A stretch of 35,582 bases of DNA from Thermoplasmata archaeon (GTDB lineage: Archaea; Thermoplasmatota; Thermoplasmata; Lutacidiplasmatales; UBA184), in contig DATKQS010000025.1 of NCBI GenBank assembly GCA_035532555.1, positions 1-35,582 on the forward strand. The letters are read 5' to 3'. The translations under genes were made by a program, and so were the position numbers. Shown piece after piece: positions 12,772 through 22,348 of the stretch; position 1 is the first letter of the stretch, and each line of letters opens with the position of its first letter. Below the pieces are notes generated by a model. The model was not told the origin of the DNA. It did not search any database and saw only the letters and a program-made list of their open reading frames with translations.

Positions 12772-13437
12772 CTACGGGGGCGAGTGAAGGTGGGTGATGA
12801 TCGAGTTCGCGAGCGTCCCTTCTACAGCGATTGCGCTGAGCAAGATGACGACCACGAAGAAGAACACGATCGCGGCCTCGAGGTACGACACCGGGTACAT
12901 CGGCCGGCCCAGCCGGTTCTTGGGAGGCTCGACCAGAGTCTCGCCGCTCGCGTGTAGCCACCGATCGGCGATGATCGCGACCGGGAAGGCGAGGATCGCG
13001 GTCACTCCGAACCCGATGTACATGAGGAACATGGCCCAGGGGGTCGATGTGAGGCCGAGTTGGTAGGCCCTCCACCCGTAGGCGATCACGGTGAACCCTG
13101 AGACCAGGCTGAGCACTCCGACGTACTGTAGGCGGAAGTGCAGAACCACCGAGATTCCGAACCCGAGGATGATGATCCCGAAGAGGGTGTAAATATCGTA
13201 GAACAGGATGTTGTACGCGCCCGGTAGGGGCCAGGTCATCATCCCCCAGAATCCCATCACGAGTACGACCACTCCCATGGCGATCAGCGGGATCGCGGTC
13301 TCGTGGAGGGCCACCCCGAGTCCCGCAGGGCCGCGGCGACGATAGGCCAGCGATTCGGCCACCACGATGTAGGCGACCGAAACCGCCACCAAGATCAGCG
13401 TGATCATCACAAACGTCAGCTCGTCGATAAACACCAT
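12772..13437 (-). CDS. DUF981 family multi-pass membrane protein
   Basis: This 221-aa integral membrane protein has about six hydrophobic segments (roughly residues 8-29, 45-68, 80-101, 105-125, 133-158 and 190-215). The opening MVFIDELTF and the central MTWPLPGAYNILFYDIYTLF match what I remember of DUF981, an archaeal membrane family of unknown function often found in acidophiles. Charged loops are short, and no cofactor-binding motif such as paired haem histidines is evident. The ATG at 13437 has a GGGGTGA ribosome-binding site 6 nt upstream. A TATA-like AAATAC lies about 110 nt upstream and not at the leaderless distance, leaving room for a leader region with a 17-codon ORF. Confidence 0.8.
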   Translation of the reverse strand: MVFIDELTFVMITLILVAVSVAYIVVAESLAYRRRGPAGLGVALHETAIPLIAMGVVVLVMGFWGMMTWPLPGAYNILFYDIYTLFGIIILGFGISVVLHFRLQYVGVLSLVSGFTVIAYGWRAYQLGLTSTPWAMFLMYIGFGVTAILAFPVAIIADRWLHASGETLVEPPKNRLGRPMYPVSYLEAAIVFFFVVVILLSAIAVEGTLANSIITHLHSPP

Positions 13438-13552: not shown

Positions 13553-13747
13553 CCACGGTCCGTTCGCTGGACTTGACGGACCGACACGCGACCGCCGATC
13601 GTAGAGGAGGGGATCGCAGGCTCGGCGGCCCCGCGCGGGGCGATCCACGAGCGTTCCGCTCCCCTGGGAGCGAGGATCGGCTCCGGGTCAAGCCGGTTTG
13701 ACGGGGGGACTATCTGCGGGGCCCGGGATGGCGAGAGAGGCCCGCCC

Positions 13748-14800
13748 ATGCGAGCGTTCGTGATGCGGAAGATCGGAGAAGTGGCGGTCATGGACAAGCC
13801 GATCCCGGAGCCGGGACCGAACGATGCCGTGATCCGAACGACCGCGGCGATGATCTGCACGTCGGACACGCACACCGTGCGAGGGGCGATCGGCGAGCGC
13901 TCGAACCTCACGTTGGGTCACGAGTCGGTCGGAGTGATCCATCGGCTCGGGTCGGCGGTCCAGGGACACGGGGTCGGTGACCGCGTCGCGGTGAACGCGA
14001 TCACGCCATGCTTCCGGTGCGACAACTGCCTGCGCGGTTTTCCATCGCAATGCACCGAGATCCTCGGTGGATGGAAGTTCGCGAACACCGTAGATGGAGG
14101 CTTGGCAGAGTACTTCCGGGTGAACGACGCGGAGGCCAATCTCGCCCCGATCCCCGCGGGGCTTCCCGACGACAAGGCGGTCTACGCGTGCGACATGATG
14201 TCCACGGGGTTCATGGCTGCCGAACATGCGGCGATCCCTATCGGCGGGGACGTCGCCGTCTTCGGTGCGGGCCCGGTCGGTCTCATGGCCATCGCAGGGG
14301 CGCGCATGCTCGGCGCGGGCTCGATCATCGCGGTCGAGACAGTGCCGAAGCGCCAGGAGCTCGCCCGGCACTTCGGGGCGGACGCGATAGTCGATTTTCG
14401 CACGGTCGACACGGTGATGGAGGTCCGTCGCCTGACGCACGGTACCGGCGTCGACTCTGCGATCGAAGCGTTCGGGTCGTCCGCCACGTTCGCGAACTGC
14501 GTTCGCGTCACGCGGCCGGGCGGCACGATCTCGAACGTCGGATACCACGGAGAGGGAGAGTTCGTCGGAATCCCCCGCCTCGATTGGGGGGTCGGGATGA
14601 GCGACCAGACGATCCGTACCGGTCTGTGCCCGGGCGGGCGGGAGCGGATGGGCCGGTTGCTGCGCCTACTCGAGCGCGGAAGGATCGATCCCACGCCCCT
14701 GACGACCCACCGGTTCCGGTCCGATGAGATCGAACGGGCGTTCGGGATGATGGCATCCAAATCCGACGGGATCATCAAGCCGCTCATCGAATTCAAGTGA
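13748..14800 (+). CDS. Zinc-dependent secondary alcohol dehydrogenase (TbADH/CbADH-like)
   Basis: This 350-aa medium-chain dehydrogenase aligns along its length with my recollection of Thermoanaerobacter brockii secondary ADH. Shared features are CTSDTHT with catalytic zinc ligand C37, LGHESVG with H58, the third ligand D149 in ACDMMSTGF, then GWKFANT, FRVNDAEANLA, GLCPGGRERM and IKPLIEF at the end. These enzymes interconvert secondary alcohols and ketones. Unlike the T. brockii enzyme it keeps a four-cysteine structural zinc site (C88, C91, C94, C102). At the end of the second Rossmann strand it has E197 (AVETVPKR) where T. brockii has the Gly-Ser-Arg used for NADP, so NAD is the likelier cofactor. 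It stands alone. Confidence 0.92.
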   Translation: MRAFVMRKIGEVAVMDKPIPEPGPNDAVIRTTAAMICTSDTHTVRGAIGERSNLTLGHESVGVIHRLGSAVQGHGVGDRVAVNAITPCFRCDNCLRGFPSQCTEILGGWKFANTVDGGLAEYFRVNDAEANLAPIPAGLPDDKAVYACDMMSTGFMAAEHAAIPIGGDVAVFGAGPVGLMAIAGARMLGAGSIIAVETVPKRQELARHFGADAIVDFRTVDTVMEVRRLTHGTGVDSAIEAFGSSATFANCVRVTRPGGTISNVGYHGEGEFVGIPRLDWGVGMSDQTIRTGLCPGGRERMGRLLRLLERGRIDPTPLTTHRFRSDEIERAFGMMASKSDGIIKPLIEFK

Positions 14801-14801
14801 G

Positions 14802-14816
14802 GCCCACGCCGTGGGC
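14802..14816. terminator. GC stem-loop directly after the alcohol dehydrogenase stop
   Basis: GCCCACG (14802-14808) and CGTGGGC (14810-14816) form a perfect 7-bp stem, with 14809 as the only unpaired base (5 bp with a sterically normal loop). It starts 2 nt after the stop codon. A 3'-end role is inference from position. Confidence 0.4.
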
Positions 14817-14873
14817 GCCTCCCCCCTACCGGCATCTCCACCCGGGAGGGTCTAGGCTCACGGCCCGGCAGCG

Positions 14874-14880
14874 TCAATAG
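14874..14880 (+). promoter_or_regulatory. TATA-like box of the sensor kinase gene
   Basis: TCAATAG is centred 27 nt before the ATG at 14904, fitting a leaderless transcript and supporting that start codon. Confidence 0.5.
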
Positions 14881-14903
14881 AGCTCTCCGCCTCGCTCGAT
14901 CCG

Positions 14904-16355
14904 ATGCCCGACTTCCCCCACTCCGGCCTGTGGTTCGAGGCGCTCGTCGGCGCGCTCCCGCTCGGGCTGGCCACGGTCGGGCCGGACGGTCAGTTGCGGT
15001 GGGCGAATCGAACGTGGCACATGCACACGCGCCTCGAGACCCACCGCCCGGCAAGCCGGGTGGACGAAGCACTCGGAATCGCGGGAGCCCCGCATCGAGA
15101 GACCCTGCTCCGCTGGATCCGGGACGGCACGGCCGGGGTGCTCCGGTCGGTCCCGCTCGCGCGAGCGGGGTCGGCCGGGGTGACCTACGCCGACATCGAA
15201 GTTCGCCTTGTCCCCCCCATCGCACCGGACTCCGACCGTCTCGTCGTCATCCACGACGTGACCGATCGGGCGATCGAGCACGACCGGGCGCGCCTGTTCT
15301 ACGAGTCGTTCCTGACCTCGACGAACGCGATCGAGATTACGGACGACAAGGGGATCCTCGTCGACGTGAACCCCGCGTTCGAACGAATCTACGGGTATTC
15401 GCGGGCCGAGTGCATCGGAAGAAGACCGAACATGGTCCGAAGTCATTCGACCCCGGCGGAGGTGTACTCGCGTCTCTGGGCGGATCTCCTCGATCCCTCC
15501 CGCGGATACTGGTCCGGAGAGATCATGAACCGGGACCGGTGGGGGCACGAACGTCTCGTCCTGCTCACCATCAGCGCGGTCCGGGATGATCGGGGGATCA
15601 CCACCCACTACCTCGGGGTCGCGGTGGATCTGACCGAACAGCGGATCTGGCAGCGCAGCGCGGCCCACGCCGACCGCCTGGCCTCGATCGGGCAGCTCGC
15701 GGCTGGAGTCGCCCACGAGATCAACACCCCCCTGACGAACGTGATGCTGGTCGCGGAATCCCTCCGTCGGCGGAGCAAGGATCCGTGGGTGCTCGCCCGG
15801 GTCGATGCAATCACCGGTCAGATCGACATCGCCGCGAAGATCGTGCGGGGACTGCTCGACTTCGCCCGTCGGTCCGAGCCCCAGATCGTCGCCCTCGATC
15901 TCGTCGAGGTCAGCCGCTCGGCGGTCGACTTCCTCCGGGGAAAGCAGTCGGCGAACATCGAGCTCGAGGAGGTCTACCCGGCGACCCCCGTCCCGGTCGC
16001 AGGGGATCGTGGCCAGCTCATCCAGGTGCTCACGAACATTCTCAACAATGGCTACGAGGCCATGGACGGAGCTCCCGGCGGTCGTCTGCGGATCGAGGTC
16101 CGGGCGGTGGACCGCCTGGCCGAGGTCGAAGTGACGGACTCGGGGCCGGGGATCCCTCCGGAGGTGATCGAGCACCTGTTCGAACCGTTCTTCACCACGA
16201 AGCCGGAGGGGCGCGGCACCGGGCTCGGACTCGCGATCAGCGACGGACTCGTCCAGGCGAATCACGGTCAACTCCTGGCGCGGAACCGGCCCGAGGGAGG
16301 AGCGAGCTTTCTCGTGCGGTTGCCCCTTGCGACCTCCCCTCCACCGGACACCTGA
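14904..16355 (+). CDS. Soluble PAS-domain sensor histidine kinase
   Basis: This 483-aa kinase has no transmembrane segment, so it should sense a cytoplasmic signal. Residues 8-120 form a first, divergent PAS-like domain (ALPLGLATVGPDGQLRWANR). Residues 130-245 form a clear second PAS domain with associated PAC segment (NAIEITDDKGILVDVNPAFE, RIYGYSRAECIG). The dimerisation/phosphoacceptor helix has LAAGVAHEINTPLTNVM with H271 as the phosphorylated histidine. The ATPase domain has the N box (LTNILNNGYEAM, 376-387), G1 (DSGPGI, 412-417), F (EPFFTT, 427-432) and G2 (GRGTGLGL, 436-443). All catalytic motifs are intact. The response regulator follows after 83 nt, making a cognate pair likely. Confidence 0.95.
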   Translation: MPDFPHSGLWFEALVGALPLGLATVGPDGQLRWANRTWHMHTRLETHRPASRVDEALGIAGAPHRETLLRWIRDGTAGVLRSVPLARAGSAGVTYADIEVRLVPPIAPDSDRLVVIHDVTDRAIEHDRARLFYESFLTSTNAIEITDDKGILVDVNPAFERIYGYSRAECIGRRPNMVRSHSTPAEVYSRLWADLLDPSRGYWSGEIMNRDRWGHERLVLLTISAVRDDRGITTHYLGVAVDLTEQRIWQRSAAHADRLASIGQLAAGVAHEINTPLTNVMLVAESLRRRSKDPWVLARVDAITGQIDIAAKIVRGLLDFARRSEPQIVALDLVEVSRSAVDFLRGKQSANIELEEVYPATPVPVAGDRGQLIQVLTNILNNGYEAMDGAPGGRLRIEVRAVDRLAEVEVTDSGPGIPPEVIEHLFEPFFTTKPEGRGTGLGLAISDGLVQANHGQLLARNRPEGGASFLVRLPLATSPPPDT

Positions 16356-16438
16356 GAGGTCGGCCGAGGGGAACCTGGGGCGGCGGCCCCGGGACGGGAC
16401 CCAGAACGGCTTTGTCGTTCGCGGTTCCTCGCGGTGGC

Positions 16439-17476
16439 ATGCGTCTGTTGCTCGTGGACGACGATTCCGTGATCCGAGAGGAACTCGGCGAGCTGCTCCG
16501 CGACGATGGCCACGAGGTCCGGGACGCCCCCTCGGTCCCAAAAGCAATCGAGATCCTTGAGCGAGAAGCGATCGATCTCGTTCTCACGGATCTCAAGATG
16601 CCGCGACACAGCGGGCTCGAGCTCCTCGGGGAGGTGCGCCGCCGCTGGCCGGAGGTCCTCGTCGTCGTCGTGACGGGGTACGCGACGGTGGAGACCGCGG
16701 TCGAAGCGATGAAGCTCGGAGCCTTCGATTACGTCCGCAAGCCGTTCCGCTTCGAGCAGATACGATCGATGCTCGACCTCGCGGCCCAGGCGATCCAGTT
16801 CCACGGCGACGGAGGCCGCGTTCAGGACATCGACCGCACGCTCGAGGCGTGGACGACCACGGACGACCTGGACGTGCTTCACCTGACGGACCGGACGGTC
16901 CGCCCGCGTCCCCGGGTCACCGTGGTCTCCACGGGGCTCGATCAGCCGGCAGAGATCCAAGCCCACCTTGAGACGTTCCTCGCGGACCGACCCCACGGCG
17001 CCCTGCTCCTCGAGGGCGCGGATCGCCTCTTCCGAGCCCATCGGCGTACTGAGGTCATCCAGTTCATCGAACGGCTGCGGCAGGAGCTCGAAGGCCGAGG
17101 TCCATTGATGGTGACGTTCGACCCGGGCTCGATCACGGTCGCGGACGTGGTCGACCTGCGGGCCCGAGTGCTCGCGGAGACGACGCGGGCGACCCTCGAG
17201 GCACTCTCGAACCCGCTGCGCCGCTCGATCCTGCGTCGCGCCTCGCAGGGCCCGTGCACGTTCACGGAGGCGATGAGCGCGGCCGGGATCGATGAGACTC
17301 CGAAGGTCTCCTTCCACCTGCATCGCTTGGAGGAGGACGGGCTGCTGGTCCACTCGGCGGATGACTACCGGATCACTCCGCGCGGCCGGGAGGCGATGGC
17401 CCTCCTCGTGGAGATGGACGCGATCGCGACCCGAGGACTCAGTGGGAACCGGGTCCTCGCCGTGGGCCCGAACTGA
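16439..17476 (+). CDS. Response regulator with DUF835-like middle and winged-helix C-terminus
   Basis: This 345-aa protein has three parts. Residues 1-118 are a complete receiver domain: acidic pocket D7/D8, phosphoacceptor D51 in VLTDLKMP, T79, and K101 in YVRKPF. Residues about 145-245 resemble the archaeal DUF835 domain (VSTGLDQPAEIQAHLETFL, GALLLEGADRLF, EVIQFIERLRQELEGRG, MVTFDPGSI). Residues about 248-322 form an ArsR-type winged helix (LEALSNPLRRSILRRAS, KVSFHLHRLEEDGLL, YRITPRGREAM). Inference: a phosphorylation-controlled archaeal transcription factor partnered with the upstream kinase. The ATG at 16439 begins exactly at the receiver's first strand. The frame stays open upstream, but only as a shadow of the kinase gene. 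The flavoprotein gene starts 55 nt after the stop and is the nearest possible target. Confidence 0.9.
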   Translation: MRLLLVDDDSVIREELGELLRDDGHEVRDAPSVPKAIEILEREAIDLVLTDLKMPRHSGLELLGEVRRRWPEVLVVVVTGYATVETAVEAMKLGAFDYVRKPFRFEQIRSMLDLAAQAIQFHGDGGRVQDIDRTLEAWTTTDDLDVLHLTDRTVRPRPRVTVVSTGLDQPAEIQAHLETFLADRPHGALLLEGADRLFRAHRRTEVIQFIERLRQELEGRGPLMVTFDPGSITVADVVDLRARVLAETTRATLEALSNPLRRSILRRASQGPCTFTEAMSAAGIDETPKVSFHLHRLEEDGLLVHSADDYRITPRGREAMALLVEMDAIATRGLSGNRVLAVGPN

Positions 17477-17498
17477 CGTCGCGACCCTCCGGGTAATC

Positions 17499-17505
17499 GA
17501 TATCC
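17499..17505 (+). promoter_or_regulatory. TATA-like box of the NDH-2-like gene
   Basis: GATATCC within GGTAATCGATATCC is centred about 30 nt before the ATG at 17532. The gene may therefore have its own promoter and be a target of the regulator encoded just upstream. ATCGAT and GATATC palindromes overlap the box. Confidence 0.45.
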
Positions 17506-17531
17506 CTCGCGGCCGCTCCTCTCCGGATGGC

Positions 17532-18734
17532 ATGGTGGCCGCTCCGTCACCGGCTCCCGCACCGCCGCTGGTCATCCTGGGCGCGGGCTACGCAGGGCTC
17601 ACGCTCGCTCAGCAGGTCCACCGGCTCTCCCGGGGAAAGATTCCGATCGTCCTCGTCGACCGAAGCCCCGCCCACATCTTGCGGACCCAACTCTACGAGA
17701 TCGATCGGATCGCCACCTCAGGAGGGAACCTCCGCCGATGGGCCGTCCCCCTCGCCTCGGTGCTCGAGAAGACCCGCGTCCAGATCCGGACCGCCCGGGT
17801 CGAGCGCGTCGATCTCGCCGAGCACACCGTCCAGCTCGACTCGGGCACGATCGAGTTCGGCGCGCTCGCACTGTGTCTCGGATCCGTCGCCGCGTACTAC
17901 GGAGTCCCGGGGGCGGCCGAGCACACCCACAGCGTCTACCGGCTCTCCGCGGCGCAACGCCTCGCGACAGCGATCCGAGAGATGGAGATCGCCTCGGTCG
18001 CGCTCCCCGGGGAGCGACGACCCCGGGTGCTCGTCGTCGGCGGGGGGTCGACCGGCACCGAGATCGCGGCCGAGATATCGACCACCGACTGGGCGGCAAT
18101 CACGAAGCCGGGGGCGCGCCGTCCGGACGTCATGCTGCTGACCGGTTCTCTACCGTTCCTCGTGGGCTTCCCTCCCCAACTCATCGAGCACGCGCGGGAA
18201 CTCCTGGTCCGGGCCGGGGTCTCGATATTCTACGGTTGGAACGTAACTCGGGTGGAGCCGCATCGGCTGCACTTGGAAGACGGGAGCGTGCTGCGCTTCG
18301 ACATCGCCGTGTGGTGCGCCGGTCTCCAGGCGCCCCCTGCGGTCGCGGAGCTTCCGGTCCGGCATGGACGGGGAGGCCGCATCACGGTCGAGCCGACACT
18401 CGAGATCCCCGGCCATCCCGGGATGTTCGCCGTCGGCGACGTGATCGAGTTCCAGGATCCGAAGACCGGACTTCTCGTCCCCAGCACCGCCCAGGCGGCC
18501 CTCGCCGAGGCCCGCGTGGCGGCGGCCAACATCGTGGCGCGCTGGAAGGGCACCGAGCTCCAGTCGTTCTCCTACCGAGAGCGAGGCGCCGCCGTGTCCG
18601 TCGGCCATGGGGCCGGGGCCGCCGCGCTCGATCGACTGACGCTCTGGGGAAGCCCGGCGGCGCTCCTCAAGCGACTCATCCAGCGGGACTACTCGCACGC
18701 CGTGGAGCAGGGAGAAAGCAGCCGAGTCCTGTAA
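17532..18734 (+). CDS. NAD(P)/FAD-dependent oxidoreductase, type II NADH dehydrogenase-like
   Basis: This 400-aa two-dinucleotide-domain flavoprotein has an FAD-binding motif near the N-terminus (LVILGAGYAGLTLAQQV, GxGxxG at 17-22), LCLGSVAAYYGVPGA, and a second Rossmann motif for NAD(P)H in the middle (VLVVGGGSTGTEIAAE). The flavin-contacting GMFAVGDVIEF and ending PSTAQAALAEARVAAANI are as in NDH-2 and related quinone reductases. No redox CxxC is present, so it is not a thioredoxin-reductase type. The C-terminal part (LWGSPAALLKRLIQRDY) could be an amphipathic membrane-contact helix, as in NDH-2. The likely role is electron transfer from NADH to quinone or another acceptor at the membrane, but sulfide:quinone reductase-like relatives exist. 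The start is set by the promoter and by homology beginning at about residue 12. Confidence 0.87.
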   Translation: MVAAPSPAPAPPLVILGAGYAGLTLAQQVHRLSRGKIPIVLVDRSPAHILRTQLYEIDRIATSGGNLRRWAVPLASVLEKTRVQIRTARVERVDLAEHTVQLDSGTIEFGALALCLGSVAAYYGVPGAAEHTHSVYRLSAAQRLATAIREMEIASVALPGERRPRVLVVGGGSTGTEIAAEISTTDWAAITKPGARRPDVMLLTGSLPFLVGFPPQLIEHARELLVRAGVSIFYGWNVTRVEPHRLHLEDGSVLRFDIAVWCAGLQAPPAVAELPVRHGRGGRITVEPTLEIPGHPGMFAVGDVIEFQDPKTGLLVPSTAQAALAEARVAAANIVARWKGTELQSFSYRERGAAVSVGHGAGAAALDRLTLWGSPAALLKRLIQRDYSHAVEQGESSRVL

Positions 18735-18754
18735 CGGATGGTGGCGAACGAAGC

Positions 18755-18760
18755 CTTAAT
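18755..18760 (+). promoter_or_regulatory. TATA-like box of the sugar nucleotidyltransferase gene
   Basis: CTTAAT lies about 36 nt before the ATG at 18794. A strong purine-rich ribosome-binding site (GGAGGAGGA, 18782-18790) sits between, so this transcript has a short leader. Confidence 0.5.
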
Positions 18761-18793
18761 CGCGGGTACCCAATCGCCGGTGGAGGAGGAACG

Positions 18794-19768
18794 ATGAAGG
18801 CGATCGCGCTCGTGGGGGGCCTCGGGACCCGCCTGCGCCCGATCACGTACGATCTTCCCAAGCAGCTGATCCCGCTCGCCGGACGTTCGATGCTGTATCG
18901 GGCGCTCGATGTGCTCCCGGACGATCTCGAGGAAGTGGTCCTCGCGACCGGGTACAAGGCCGACCAGATCGCGGCGTACGTGCACGAGCACCCCTACCGG
19001 CTCCGGATCCGCACGGTCCCCGAGAGGCAACCGCTCGGGACCGGAGGCGGGATGCGCAACGTCGCCGACGGGATGTCCGACCCCTTCTTCGTGATCAACT
19101 CCGACATCGTCTCGGCGGCCTCCGCGGCCGAGGTCCTCCGGGTGCACGAACAGCGGAACGGGATCGGTGCCCTCCTCCTCGCACGGGTCGAGGAGACCCA
19201 GACCTTTGGCGTCGCCGCGCTCGGCGAGAACGACCGGATCACGCAATTCGTGGAGAAACCCGCGCCGGGAGAGGCGCCCTCCCCGTGGATCAACGCCGGC
19301 ATCTCCGTGTGGCGACGCGAGGTGCTCGATCGGATCCCGACCGGCCGCGAGGTCAGCTTCGAGCGCGAGATCCTTCCCGGTCTGTTGGACCGTGGGGTGT
19401 ACGGAGCGCGACTCGAGGGGTACTGGCAGGATGCGGGCACGCCGGAACGCGTGCTGTACGCCCAGCGGCTCCTCTTCGAAGCCGGAAAGGGGGTCGAAGT
19501 CTACCTACCGTCCGGCGCGTCGGGGACGGGCCCGGTCTCGGTCGGACCGGGCGCACGTGCGGTCGGCGCGACGTTCGGCCCGCTCGTCACCCTCGGAGCG
19601 GGCGTCGTGGTCGGAGAAGAGGCCCGTATCTCCAATTCGATCGTGATGGACGGGGCGCGGATCGACTCCGCCGCCACCGTGATCGGTTCGATCCTCGGTC
19701 CGCGCGCACACGTCGCGGCCGGGCACCGGGTCGCCGATCAGGTCCTCGGCGCCGGCGGGGAAGCCTGA
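18794..19768 (+). CDS. NDP-sugar pyrophosphorylase with left-handed beta-helix tail
   Basis: This 324-aa enzyme joins a sugar 1-phosphate to a nucleotide. The N-terminal nucleotidyltransferase signature is ALVGGLGTRLRPITYDLPKQ (GGxGTRLRP with the following PKxL lysine), then ERQPLGTGGGMRN and FVINSDIV, in which the Asp binds metal, and VEKP. From about residue 235 the protein turns into hexapeptide-like repeats (VSVGPGARAVGATFGPLVTL, GAGVVVGEEARISNSIVM), a left-handed beta-helix of the kind seen in mannose-1-phosphate guanylyltransferases and GlmU-like proteins. The sugar cannot be fixed: mannose, glucose or glucosamine 1-phosphate are candidates. No second acetyltransferase active site is evident. 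It ends 1 nt from the stop of the converging dehydrogenase. Confidence 0.9.
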   Translation: MKAIALVGGLGTRLRPITYDLPKQLIPLAGRSMLYRALDVLPDDLEEVVLATGYKADQIAAYVHEHPYRLRIRTVPERQPLGTGGGMRNVADGMSDPFFVINSDIVSAASAAEVLRVHEQRNGIGALLLARVEETQTFGVAALGENDRITQFVEKPAPGEAPSPWINAGISVWRREVLDRIPTGREVSFEREILPGLLDRGVYGARLEGYWQDAGTPERVLYAQRLLFEAGKGVEVYLPSGASGTGPVSVGPGARAVGATFGPLVTLGAGVVVGEEARISNSIVMDGARIDSAATVIGSILGPRAHVAAGHRVADQVLGAGGEA

Positions 19769-19769
19769 G

Positions 19770-20807
19770 TCACCGCGCCGGGCCCGTCACCACAACCTTC
19801 AGCGAGTCCTGGGGCCGCTGGGCGAGCCGGAACGCTTCCTCGATCTCCTCGAGCGGGATCCGGTGGGAAACGAGGTCATTGAGCGCGAGCCGGCCGTCCA
19901 CGACGAGCTGCTGGACGGCGGCGATGTCGGCCTCGGTCGTCGCGTAGGAGGGCACGAGCCGGATCCCGCGCAGGTAGATCTCCTGAAGATCGGCGTCAAG
20001 GCGGCTACCGCTGGGTGGGACCCCGAAGAGGTTCACGGTACCCCCTCGACGGGCGATCGTCGTGGCGAGGGTCACTGCGGAGGGGGCGCCCGTCGCGGCG
20101 ACCGCGAGATCGACCCCCCGTCCATCGGTCGCTCGATCGATGAGGTCGCGGACGGCGGACCCGTCGGTCGGATCGATCGCGGCATCGATCCCACCCCGCT
20201 CGGCCGCGAGGCGGCGCAACGGAGCGAGTTCGGCCCCGCCGACCCAGGCCGCGCCCCGGGCGCGGGCAAGGCGTGCGTAGAGAAGGCCGGCCGGTCCAAG
20301 GCCGATGACGAACACGGACGCCTCCGGAGGAAGCGCGATCCGTCGCAGGGCGGTCGCAACGCAGCCCCCCGGTTCGAGCAGGGCGCCGGCGTCCCACCCC
20401 ACGCGCCGGTCGAGCGTCAGGACGGCTCCCTTGCGGACATGATCGGCGGAGACCCGGAACGCCTCTGCGAACCCGCACGGATCGAGGTTCGTCTTCGCGT
20501 ACGCCGGGCAAAACATGTAGTCCCCCCGGGCGCAGACGGGGCAAGCGAGGCAGGGGACGTGGTGATGGACGAACACCCGGTCTCCGACCTCGTGGCCCTC
20601 CACGCCCGTGCCGACCGTCTCGATGGTCCCGACCGGCTCGTGACCGAGGATCGCGCTCGCGGTGTAGCCACCACGCACCTTCTCGAGGTCCGTCCCGCAC
20701 AGGCCGCACTCGGCCATCCGGACGACGATCTCACCGGGGCCGGCGACCGGCCGAGGAGTGTCGGCGAGGCCCACCCGCCCCGGGGCCTCGAGCCGAGCGT
20801 ACTTCAT
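19770..20807 (-). CDS. Zinc-dependent dehydrogenase (threonine/polyol dehydrogenase-like)
   Basis: This 345-aa medium-chain dehydrogenase carries the catalytic zinc ligand C37 in CGLCGTDLEK, H56 in LGHEPVG, and a structural zinc site C86, C89, C92, C100 (VPCLACPVCARGDYMFC). The Rossmann segment is FVIGLGPAGLLYARLA. E in LLEPGGC is the usual third zinc-region acid. It resembles L-threonine 3-dehydrogenase, sorbitol dehydrogenase and archaeal glucose dehydrogenases. The ATG at 20807 overlaps the stop of the upstream aminotransferase gene (ATGA), so the two products are made together and may act in one pathway. Substrate unresolved. Confidence 0.88.
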   Translation of the reverse strand: MKYARLEAPGRVGLADTPRPVAGPGEIVVRMAECGLCGTDLEKVRGGYTASAILGHEPVGTIETVGTGVEGHEVGDRVFVHHHVPCLACPVCARGDYMFCPAYAKTNLDPCGFAEAFRVSADHVRKGAVLTLDRRVGWDAGALLEPGGCVATALRRIALPPEASVFVIGLGPAGLLYARLARARGAAWVGGAELAPLRRLAAERGGIDAAIDPTDGSAVRDLIDRATDGRGVDLAVAATGAPSAVTLATTIARRGGTVNLFGVPPSGSRLDADLQEIYLRGIRLVPSYATTEADIAAVQQLVVDGRLALNDLVSHRIPLEEIEEAFRLAQRPQDSLKVVVTGPAR

Positions 20808-22195
20808 CGGGCTCGGGCCGCGAGGATGGCGGCATCGAGGATCTCGACGCCCTCGTCGATCTCCTCGCGCTGGATGATGAGGGGAGGGATGTACCGGATC
20901 GAGGAGCGGCCGCACGGTAACAGGATCAGGCCGCGCCGATACGACTCCTGAAGGATCCGGTCGCGGAGCCGCACCGCGGGCTCCTTGGTCGTCCGGCTCG
21001 TCACGAACTCGGTCGCGACCATGAGCCCGAGCCCGCGGACGTCGCCGATCTCCTCGTACTTGGCCTGCAGCTCGCGCAGGCGCGTCTGAAGATACGCGCC
21101 TTGGGTCCGCGTGTTCTCGAGTACATGCTCGCGCTCGATCACGTCGAGCGTCGCGAGGGCCCCGGCGACTGCGACCAGATTTCCACCGAACGTGTTGGAG
21201 TGGGCCCCCGATTTCGTGTAATCGAGGTCCCCGCGGAAGATGATCGCCCCGATGGGAAGCCCGCTCCCGAGCGCCTTCGCGGTCGTAACGATGTCCGGGA
21301 CGATCCCGTGGTGCTCGATCGCGAACCAGTGTCCCGTGCGTCCGATGCCGGACTGCACTTCGTCATCGATGAAGAGGATCCCGTGCTCGTCCAGGATCGA
21401 CTTGATCGCCGCGTGCCATCCCTTCGGGGGAACGATGTACCCACCCTCCCCCATGACCGGTTCCGCGATGAACGCCGCGACGTCGTCCGGCGGGATCGAG
21501 GTCTCGAAGTAGAGCTCCTTCAGGATCTTGGCGCAGTACAGATCGCAGCTCGGATACTCGAGCTTGTACGGGCATCGGTAACAGTAGGGAGAGGGGATGT
21601 GCTGTCCGCCTCCGGTGTAGGCATTGAACCGCGAGCGCTGGACCGGCTTGGACGTGGTCATCGTGAGCGCGCCCAGGGTGCGCCCGTGGAAGGCCCCGAG
21701 TAGACCCACCGTCAGCGGTCGCTGGCGGTTCCATCGCGCGAGCTTCAGCGCTGCCTCGGCGCTTTCGGTCCCGCTGTTGGTGTAGAAGACCTTCTTCGCG
21801 TGGGTGCCCGGCGTGATCGCCGCGAGACGTTCGGCGAGCCGCGTTTGGTTTTCGTAGTAGAAGTCCGTCCCGGCGAAGTGGGAGAGCCTTCCCGCCTGTT
21901 CCCGGACCGCTTGAACGACCGCCGGATGGGAGTGTCCGACGTTCAGGACCGATATACCCGCGGCAAAATCGAGCAGCCGGTTGCCGTCCACGTCGGTGAC
22001 CCAGACCCCGAGCGCGCTCTCCGCCACGATCGGGGAGGTCTTGGTGGTCGTCGCCATCGAGGCCTCGTCGGCCCGGATGATGCGCTGCGCCTTCGGTCCC
22101 GGGATCGGAACCCGAATCATCACTCCTCGATGGGGCGGCTTCGATGGGTCGCGAGGAGGGAGATCGGCCGTGGGGGACGCCCGGCTTTCGCTCAT
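20804..22195 (-). CDS. Class III (PLP-dependent) omega-aminotransferase
   Basis: This 463-aa enzyme belongs to the acetylornithine/ornithine/4-aminobutyrate aminotransferase family. The PLP lysine is K307 in VTTAKALGSG. Asp 278 of the FIDDEVQSG motif contacts the pyridine ring, and NSGTESAEAALKLAR is the phosphate-binding region. A four-cysteine insert (C205, C208, C217, C221 in PSPYCYRCPYKLEYPSCDLYC) resembles that of archaeal ornithine/GABA-type enzymes and related broad amino-acid racemases, as I recall from Thermococcales. ATG at 22195 is used because a TATA box lies about 35 nt upstream. An ornithine, GABA or lysine-type substrate is plausible, and the family also contains racemases. Confidence 0.9.
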   Translation of the reverse strand: MSESRASPTADLPPRDPSKPPHRGVMIRVPIPGPKAQRIIRADEASMATTTKTSPIVAESALGVWVTDVDGNRLLDFAAGISVLNVGHSHPAVVQAVREQAGRLSHFAGTDFYYENQTRLAERLAAITPGTHAKKVFYTNSGTESAEAALKLARWNRQRPLTVGLLGAFHGRTLGALTMTTSKPVQRSRFNAYTGGGQHIPSPYCYRCPYKLEYPSCDLYCAKILKELYFETSIPPDDVAAFIAEPVMGEGGYIVPPKGWHAAIKSILDEHGILFIDDEVQSGIGRTGHWFAIEHHGIVPDIVTTAKALGSGLPIGAIIFRGDLDYTKSGAHSNTFGGNLVAVAGALATLDVIEREHVLENTRTQGAYLQTRLRELQAKYEEIGDVRGLGLMVATEFVTSRTTKEPAVRLRDRILQESYRRGLILLPCGRSSIRYIPPLIIQREEIDEGVEILDAAILAARAR

Positions 22196-22226
22196 GAACG
22201 CTCCGCGCGGCCCAGTTCTCCCGTGG

Positions 22227-22233
22227 GGTATAG
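22227..22233 (-). promoter_or_regulatory. TATA box of the aminotransferase-dehydrogenase operon
   Basis: CTATACC on the minus strand, in the context GGCTATACCCC, is one of the clearest TATA boxes here. It predicts a start of transcription near 22203, about 8 nt before the ATG at 22195. Confidence 0.55.
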
Positions 22234-22348
22234 CCTTCTCGGTGCCACGGGCGGCGGTGCGTCGGGCCAAGGATCACGGCCGACCGGACCGGGGCCCCGC
22301 GGGCGCACCTTGGAACCGTTCTGCACGGGGACCGGACGATCGCCGCGC

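Follow-up and report, generated by a model that had tools for sequence, protein, structure and literature searches.

A probable redox-sensing two-component activator and its predicted operator in archaea of the UBA184 group

The histidine kinase and response regulator encoded side by side in a 35,582-nucleotide stretch of a Thermoplasmata archaeon (contig DATKQS010000025.1; the whole stretch is called the window here) probably constitute a redox- or energy-sensing two-component activator of the UBA184 group (order Lutacidiplasmatales, soil archaea), one that would induce its own operon through a palindromic operator, GTCAA-N6-TTGAC. The original prediction had joined these two genes (14904-16355 and 16439-17476) and a third (17532-18734), all on the forward strand and all found to be open frames with the starts proposed for them, into a redox regulatory unit. 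That idea survives for the kinase-regulator pair, for the likeness of the kinase's PAS domain to redox sensors and for a predicted regulon of redox and stress genes; it fails for the third gene, which encodes a flavoprotein. Recurring partners that the prediction missed, namely an alcohol dehydrogenase, a DUF981 protein and the operator, lie outside its coordinates, 14904-18734.

The gene pair and its predicted operator

We searched 61 genomes, 37 of the genus and 24 outgroup; the window's own genome comprises 1.6 Mb in 27 contigs. The relatives are Thermoplasmata metagenome-assembled genomes (MAGs) that include UBA184 and the AcS1-3 MAGs, which have been assigned to Candidatus Lutacidiplasmatales, a group described as having no cultured representative as of 2022 (PMC9287336). 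The regulator family is present at full or near-full length in 31 of the 37 genus genomes, and one further genome (G013) has the kinase, giving 32 system-positive genomes; both proteins are absent from the remaining five (G010, G017, G023, G024 and G025). The kinase and regulator are a conserved pair: of 28 genus loci whose flanks extend for 1.3 kb or more, 27 have the kinase gene upstream of the regulator gene on the same strand. Among the 31 genomes with a regulator, 27 have it paired, and the other four consist of three in which a contig ends within 1.3 kb and one, G008, considered further below. The gene order expected in relatives was thus conserved for the pair and not for the flavoprotein.

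A de novo search for palindromic motifs in 21 regions upstream of the kinase, from which the window and G001 were left out, returned a motif of 362.6 bits at width 16, as compared to 154-172 bits in shuffled sequences. Nineteen of the 21 sites score at least 15, and eight of nine held-out loci without shared sequence score 15.8-20.5. In the window, the predicted operator GTCAAGCCGGTTTGAC (13687-13702, a palindrome assigned to neither strand) has the best position weight matrix score (20.6) and is the sole strong site, where the strict pattern would be expected 0.02 times in shuffles; nothing comparable was found just upstream of the kinase (14800-14904) or the regulator (best score 4.4). It sits 45 nt before the start of ADH1 (13748-14800, forward strand), a member of the zinc-dependent alcohol dehydrogenase family (Pfam ADH_N and ADH_zinc_N) that would be the first gene of the operon, and 250 nt from the start of a divergent DUF981 gene. 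ADH1 orthologues of 74-77% identity lie upstream of the kinase in two other loci (L046 and L047) and are accompanied by the operator in three (L284, L288 and L289, from genomes G030 and G008).

The distribution of the strict pattern follows that of the two proteins. It occurs in 29 of the 32 system-positive genus genomes (94 sites, against 3 for a reversed-pattern control) and in 0 of the 5 genomes lacking both proteins (Fisher p 1.3e-4); the window's genome has 6 strict sites and 0 for the control. On the flavoprotein tree, the four negative genomes that can be placed require three changes, at least two of them forced by well-supported branches, with G010 outside the tree. Sites were deduplicated by flanking sequence and the genes facing them were not, so that one promoter region may appear from two sides. 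Among distinct strict sites in the fetched genus loci, 78 of 79 are intergenic, even though 80% of that DNA is coding. Operator-facing promoters have a TATA-like element at a fixed spacing, with the operator on its upstream side: in 44 promoters that face a site at 25-60 nt, the AT fraction is 0.73, 0.93 and 0.95 at positions +9, +10 and +11 after the site and about 0.2 at most other positions. The TATA-like core of the window's operon (13711-13713, forward strand) falls 9-11 nt past the operator.

Sensor and regulator domains

The kinase (14904-16355, forward strand) is a PAS-PAS-HisKA-HATPase protein. Pfam, with scans of the window proteins reported down to E<=1, matches HATPase_c (1e-24), HisKA (8.5e-11) and, at residues 142-247, PAS_4 (5.3e-14), and two PAS stretches appear at the E<=1 setting. 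Because no 19-residue stretch exceeds 1.6 on the Kyte-Doolittle scale (maximum 1.44), the kinase is soluble and without a membrane segment, as had been proposed along with its PAS-like domains. Residues H271, N378, N382, D412, G414, G440 and G442, which represent the HisKA histidine and the N and G boxes of the HATPase domain, are invariant in 25 of 25 family members.

The second PAS domain (PAS2; 15327-15644, forward strand) resembles those of NifL, MmoS and Aer; among solved chains, phmmer finds NifL (2gj3, 3.7e-13), MmoS (3ewk, 1.1e-12) and a NifL-like histidine kinase chain (9qq6) nearest, with Aer (8dik, 2.1e-7) also significant. In such domains an F-alpha tryptophan is named as the main determinant of flavin adenine dinucleotide (FAD) binding, with an asparagine and a histidine as secondary ones (PMC10468136). 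W192 aligns with this tryptophan, and W192 and N209 are both found in 24 of 25 kinase family members, the exception (L064) being outside the genus; the secondary histidine position, H181, is not conserved (2 of 25). FAD binding by PAS2 is likely because the F-alpha tryptophan and the asparagine are kept and the nearest solved sequences are FAD redox sensors. The redox-type sensing first ascribed to the kinase accords with this resemblance and with the redox- and stress-related character of the predicted regulon.

The regulator (16439-17476, forward strand), identified from Pfam, family matches and hhalign, has the receiver and ArsR-type winged helix assigned to it originally: Response_reg is matched at 3e-29, DUF7347 at 1.1e-7 and HTH_20 at 7.6e-7, and in the winged helix (17192-17398, forward strand) both HTH_20 (29.4 bits; cut-off 27) and DUF7347 (32.4 bits; cut-off 27.6) are above their thresholds. 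The receiver pocket is intact across the family, with D7, D51 and K101 in 33 of 33 members and D8 and T79 in 32 of 33. The structure model has a pLDDT of 83.5, and full-length Foldseek searches, in which the receiver dominates the hits, were uninformative on the middle domain.

The claim of a DUF835-like middle domain was borne out for the family and not directly for the window's protein, which has no match to Pfam DUF835 (PF05763) at E<=1. Nine of the 33 family members do match DUF835 (1.7e-17 at best). So do two distant relatives, from a Hadesarchaea and a Thermoplasmatales MAG, which at 84.7 and 60.1 bits are above the cut-off of 33.1 and share the order receiver (REC), DUF835, winged helix-turn-helix (wHTH). 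When 31 middle-domain rows (L062 and L064 left out) were aligned to nine DUF835 rows, hhalign gave a score of 41.4 (E 1.8e-6), against at most 16.7 in 50 column-shuffled controls and 11.7 and 12.4 for the REC and HTH parts of the regulator. Because family members and the profile comparison match while the window's protein does not, we regard residues 141-237 (16859-17149, forward strand) as a DUF835-like linker domain, of the inactivated KaiC type, that is degenerate in the window.

The window's genome also has an orphan regulator paralogue (L060:9285-10340, C9:75308-76339; 39% identical) with no kinase adjoining, no operator upstream and close copies in G004 and G018; it scores 14.2 bits against DUF835, below the cut-off. 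In G012 (L063:9007-10487) the regulator is split by a stop, and operator sites persist.

Predicted targets and neighbouring genes

The inferred regulon is, as judged from the genes that face strict or relaxed sites, redox- and stress-related. Pfam assigns these genes to POR subunits, class IV aminotransferase, malic enzyme, ferritin, OsmC and CMD (AhpD-like), and further ones to Hsp20, Cpn60, Usp, P-type ATPase, CBS, DsrE, DoxX, amino-acid permease and 4HFCP synthase; an amino-acid kinase is a carbamate kinase by eye, flavodoxin matches are weak or marginal, and eight of the 30 operator-facing proteins scanned have no match. Most often the target belongs to a family of small membrane proteins, with 11 genes (in L201, L229, L230, L233, L238, L241, L244, L252, L255, L277 and L301) and no Pfam match in the members scanned. 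Of the six strict sites in the window's genome, one lies between an ICMT-like gene and a DUF302 gene; the others face ADH1/DUF981, 4HFCP synthase, a CMD protein and small proteins that are membrane-bound or secreted. In seven loci (L209, L222, L223, L237, L245, L250 and L259) a POR-type gene and an aminotransferase gene diverge from a single operator, the distance to most start codons being 36-48 nt. The mycobacterial DosR regulon includes Usp, alpha-crystallin, CBS and P-type ATPase, a parallel from which we draw nothing.

Of 23 loci for which the upstream sequence is long enough, 18 have a divergent receiver-like gene (consensus GETPSLGRSI...) upstream of the kinase; one of the 18 is a match of 29 residues where a contig ends. 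The gene is missing from this position in the window, G001, L046, L058 and L065, and a search of the window's genome gave a weak match elsewhere (26.8 bits) and none beside the kinase. The model of this protein (pLDDT 83.8) has alternating strands and helices; Foldseek returns mostly receivers, with TM about 0.6-0.68, and another Rossmann protein as the top match. The consensus is without the acidic DD pair, the other phosphorylation residues having been judged by eye, and we refer to it as a putative pseudo-receiver.

The DUF981 membrane protein gene of the window (12772-13437, reverse strand; Pfam 4.5e-38) is divergent from the operon. At 7 of 27 loci a DUF981 gene separates the kinase from the regulator, and an operator-like site (17.1-18.5 bits) lies upstream of it in 7 of 7; with so few loci, we rejected the idea that DUF981 is a constant third member. 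The copy in the window is of a shorter type covering the whole Pfam profile, as opposed to most inserted copies, which match the first 150 positions only, and because profile coverage differs in this way we class it as a probable regulon member and not as orthologous to the inserted copies. A limited literature search met DUF835 in one paper and found no published account of DUF981. By eye, arginine deiminase-like and amino-acid permease-like genes lie between or adjoin kinase and regulator in L057, L063 and L044, and a carbamate kinase-like gene is nearby in L063 and L044; these neighbours suggest a link to acid or energy stress.

Alternative readings and known systems

Taken as a mechanism, these features would fit together as follows. 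The soluble kinase would read the cytoplasmic redox state through its FAD-type PAS domain and, its catalytic residues being intact, phosphorylate D51 of the regulator, which would then dimerise and bind GTCAA-N6-TTGAC by its winged helix, as phylogenetic footprints suggest. The operator is 8 nt upstream of the TATA-like element, where an archaeal activator that assists TBP/TFB binding would be expected to sit. From this site the regulator would drive the ADH1-kinase-regulator operon, in a positive autoregulatory loop, and the divergent DUF981 gene is probably driven from it too; elsewhere in the genomes it would drive redox and stress genes. In most relatives, one of the genes under operator control would be the pseudo-receiver gene divergent to the kinase, the product of which may damp the kinase and could be a feedback inhibitor, by analogy with the action of Osp on CckA. 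A broader proposal, in which one such system (an FAD-PAS kinase, a regulator with a decayed KaiC-like (DUF835) domain between receiver and winged helix, a TATA-spaced activator operator and a self-induced pseudo-receiver acting back on the kinase) governs a genus-wide redox regulon, is tentative, and we place it somewhat short of an even chance.

The pair was at first proposed to control the flavoprotein, and hence respiratory electron entry. This protein (17532-18734, forward strand; Pyr_redox_2 7.3e-30) is of the NDH-2 type by full-length similarity, as had been predicted: its closest solved chain is NADH dehydrogenase-like YjlD (1.6e-37 over residues 13-383), and 4nwz is matched at 2.1e-34. 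Its gene starts 55 bp after the regulator on the same strand and is likewise beside the regulator in G001, which would permit read-through; in G008 the two genes are divergent and no more than 0.7 kb apart. These three (G000, G001 and G008) are the only cases of adjacency in the 25 of 37 genus genomes that encode the flavoprotein, the other 22 having it elsewhere, and no operator was found upstream of it in 23 regions (best score 11.7). The three linked regulators group together in a small clade that also contains L034, which suggests that a local rearrangement brought the genes into contact. At 15 of 21 other flavoprotein loci a nucleotidyltransferase (in the window, 18794-19768) follows on the same strand, in many cases with ADH2 and an aminotransferase beyond, and three of these 15 loci (L167, L176 and L177) come from genomes without kinase and regulator. 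The four genes at 17532-22270 form a conserved block of their own in the genus. We rejected the flavoprotein as a member of the unit on gene order, missing operator and own block; it is probably a neighbour from another block, and its control by the pair is quite improbable. As for the TATA-like box ascribed to it, an AT-rich stretch does exist at ~17495-17506 and is kept in a 91%-identical neighbour species, but it is unproven because the surrounding bases are conserved as well.

The weakest link in the activator model is the binding of the regulator to the operator, a prediction from sequence, and several observations weigh against it. G008 is a true exception, with a regulator that has neither kinase nor operator beside it; no site immediately precedes the kinase in L046 (10.9) or L065 (2.0), and the held-out locus L087 reaches only 11.8. 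Three system-positive genomes (G005, G016 and G034) have no strict site and carry variant sites at the kinase only. The strict site is not enriched in the 24 outgroup genomes (21 vs 17 for the control), and G040, an outgroup genome with a related kinase-regulator pair, has 4 sites vs 2. The relaxed pattern picks up chance matches (of 24 non-strict sites, 11 fall within genes), and in part of the genomes genes were called with a purpose-built codon model. Co-occurrence is also not binding, and one could envision that the operator, though real, is the site of another transcription factor that was lost from the same genomes and controls the kinase-regulator operon too while the pair acts elsewhere; targets scattered over many pathways would suit such a factor. 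This we consider unlikely: nearly all genomes have the site at the kinase locus, it was lost together with the pair in several lineages, a palindrome suits a dimeric winged helix, and only four genomes (G000, G004, G006 and G018), far fewer than have the site, showed the other close paralogue of the regulator.

ArsR-type winged helices are often repressors, and phosphorylation could accordingly release the regulator from its site. The position of the site, upstream of the TATA element at a fixed spacing and neither over nor downstream of it, and the service of divergent promoters by one site (POR and aminotransferase type) speak for activation, so that repression seems improbable to us. Somewhat less remote, if still rather unlikely, is that PAS2 senses something other than redox, such as a small ligand or oxygen by haem, or holds no cofactor at all, since similarity among PAS domains does not by itself fix the ligand; against this stand the three FAD redox sensors among the nearest solved sequences and the conservation of a tryptophan at the F-alpha position.

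DNA-binding response regulators are considered rare in archaea (PMC5847659), and little is known of their action on TBP/TFB promoters; here the sequence yields a regulator, a probable operator, its spacing from the TATA element, targets and natural losses of the system. If our interpretation is true, it defines the operator and the targets of an archaeal response regulator with REC-DUF835-wHTH architecture, makes mechanism and signal directly testable in vitro despite the lack of a cultured representative, and opens a way to study the role of an inactivated KaiC-like domain that links a receiver to a DNA-binding domain.

Among known systems, REC-DUF835 and REC-PAS-PAS-DUF835 are given as typical archaeal forms, DUF835 being an inactivated KaiC-like domain (iKaiC) (Galperin et al. 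2018, PMC5847659). The regulator described here shares the N-terminal receiver and DUF835 with such proteins, which are reported there from Methanomicrobia and Thermoplasmata, and differs in its additional C-terminal ArsR-type winged helix and degenerate DUF835. LtrK/LtrR and FilI/FilR1 likewise combine an archaeal histidine kinase with a receiver/HTH regulator; however, as described in the same source, LtrR is HTH-REC and FilR1 consists of wHTH, DUF1724 and a C-terminal REC, whereas here the receiver is N-terminal with DUF835 between. The NDH-2 proteins (YjlD, 4nwz) are matched by the flavoprotein over its length, but we judge it a neighbour outside the system. The FAD-PAS sensors NifL, MmoS and Aer resemble PAS2 in sequence and at the F-alpha tryptophan and asparagine positions; here the sensor is an archaeal kinase that is soluble and has a DNA-binding regulator as its cognate partner, and the flavin is predicted from sequence. 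Finally, Osp, a receiver-like inhibitor of CckA in Rhodobacter, is as described in PMC9430884 a small receiver-like protein whose gene has a site for its own system's regulator; the archaeal pseudo-receiver, whose gene is absent from the window's kinase locus, is likened to it by analogy, and its effect on the kinase is a guess.

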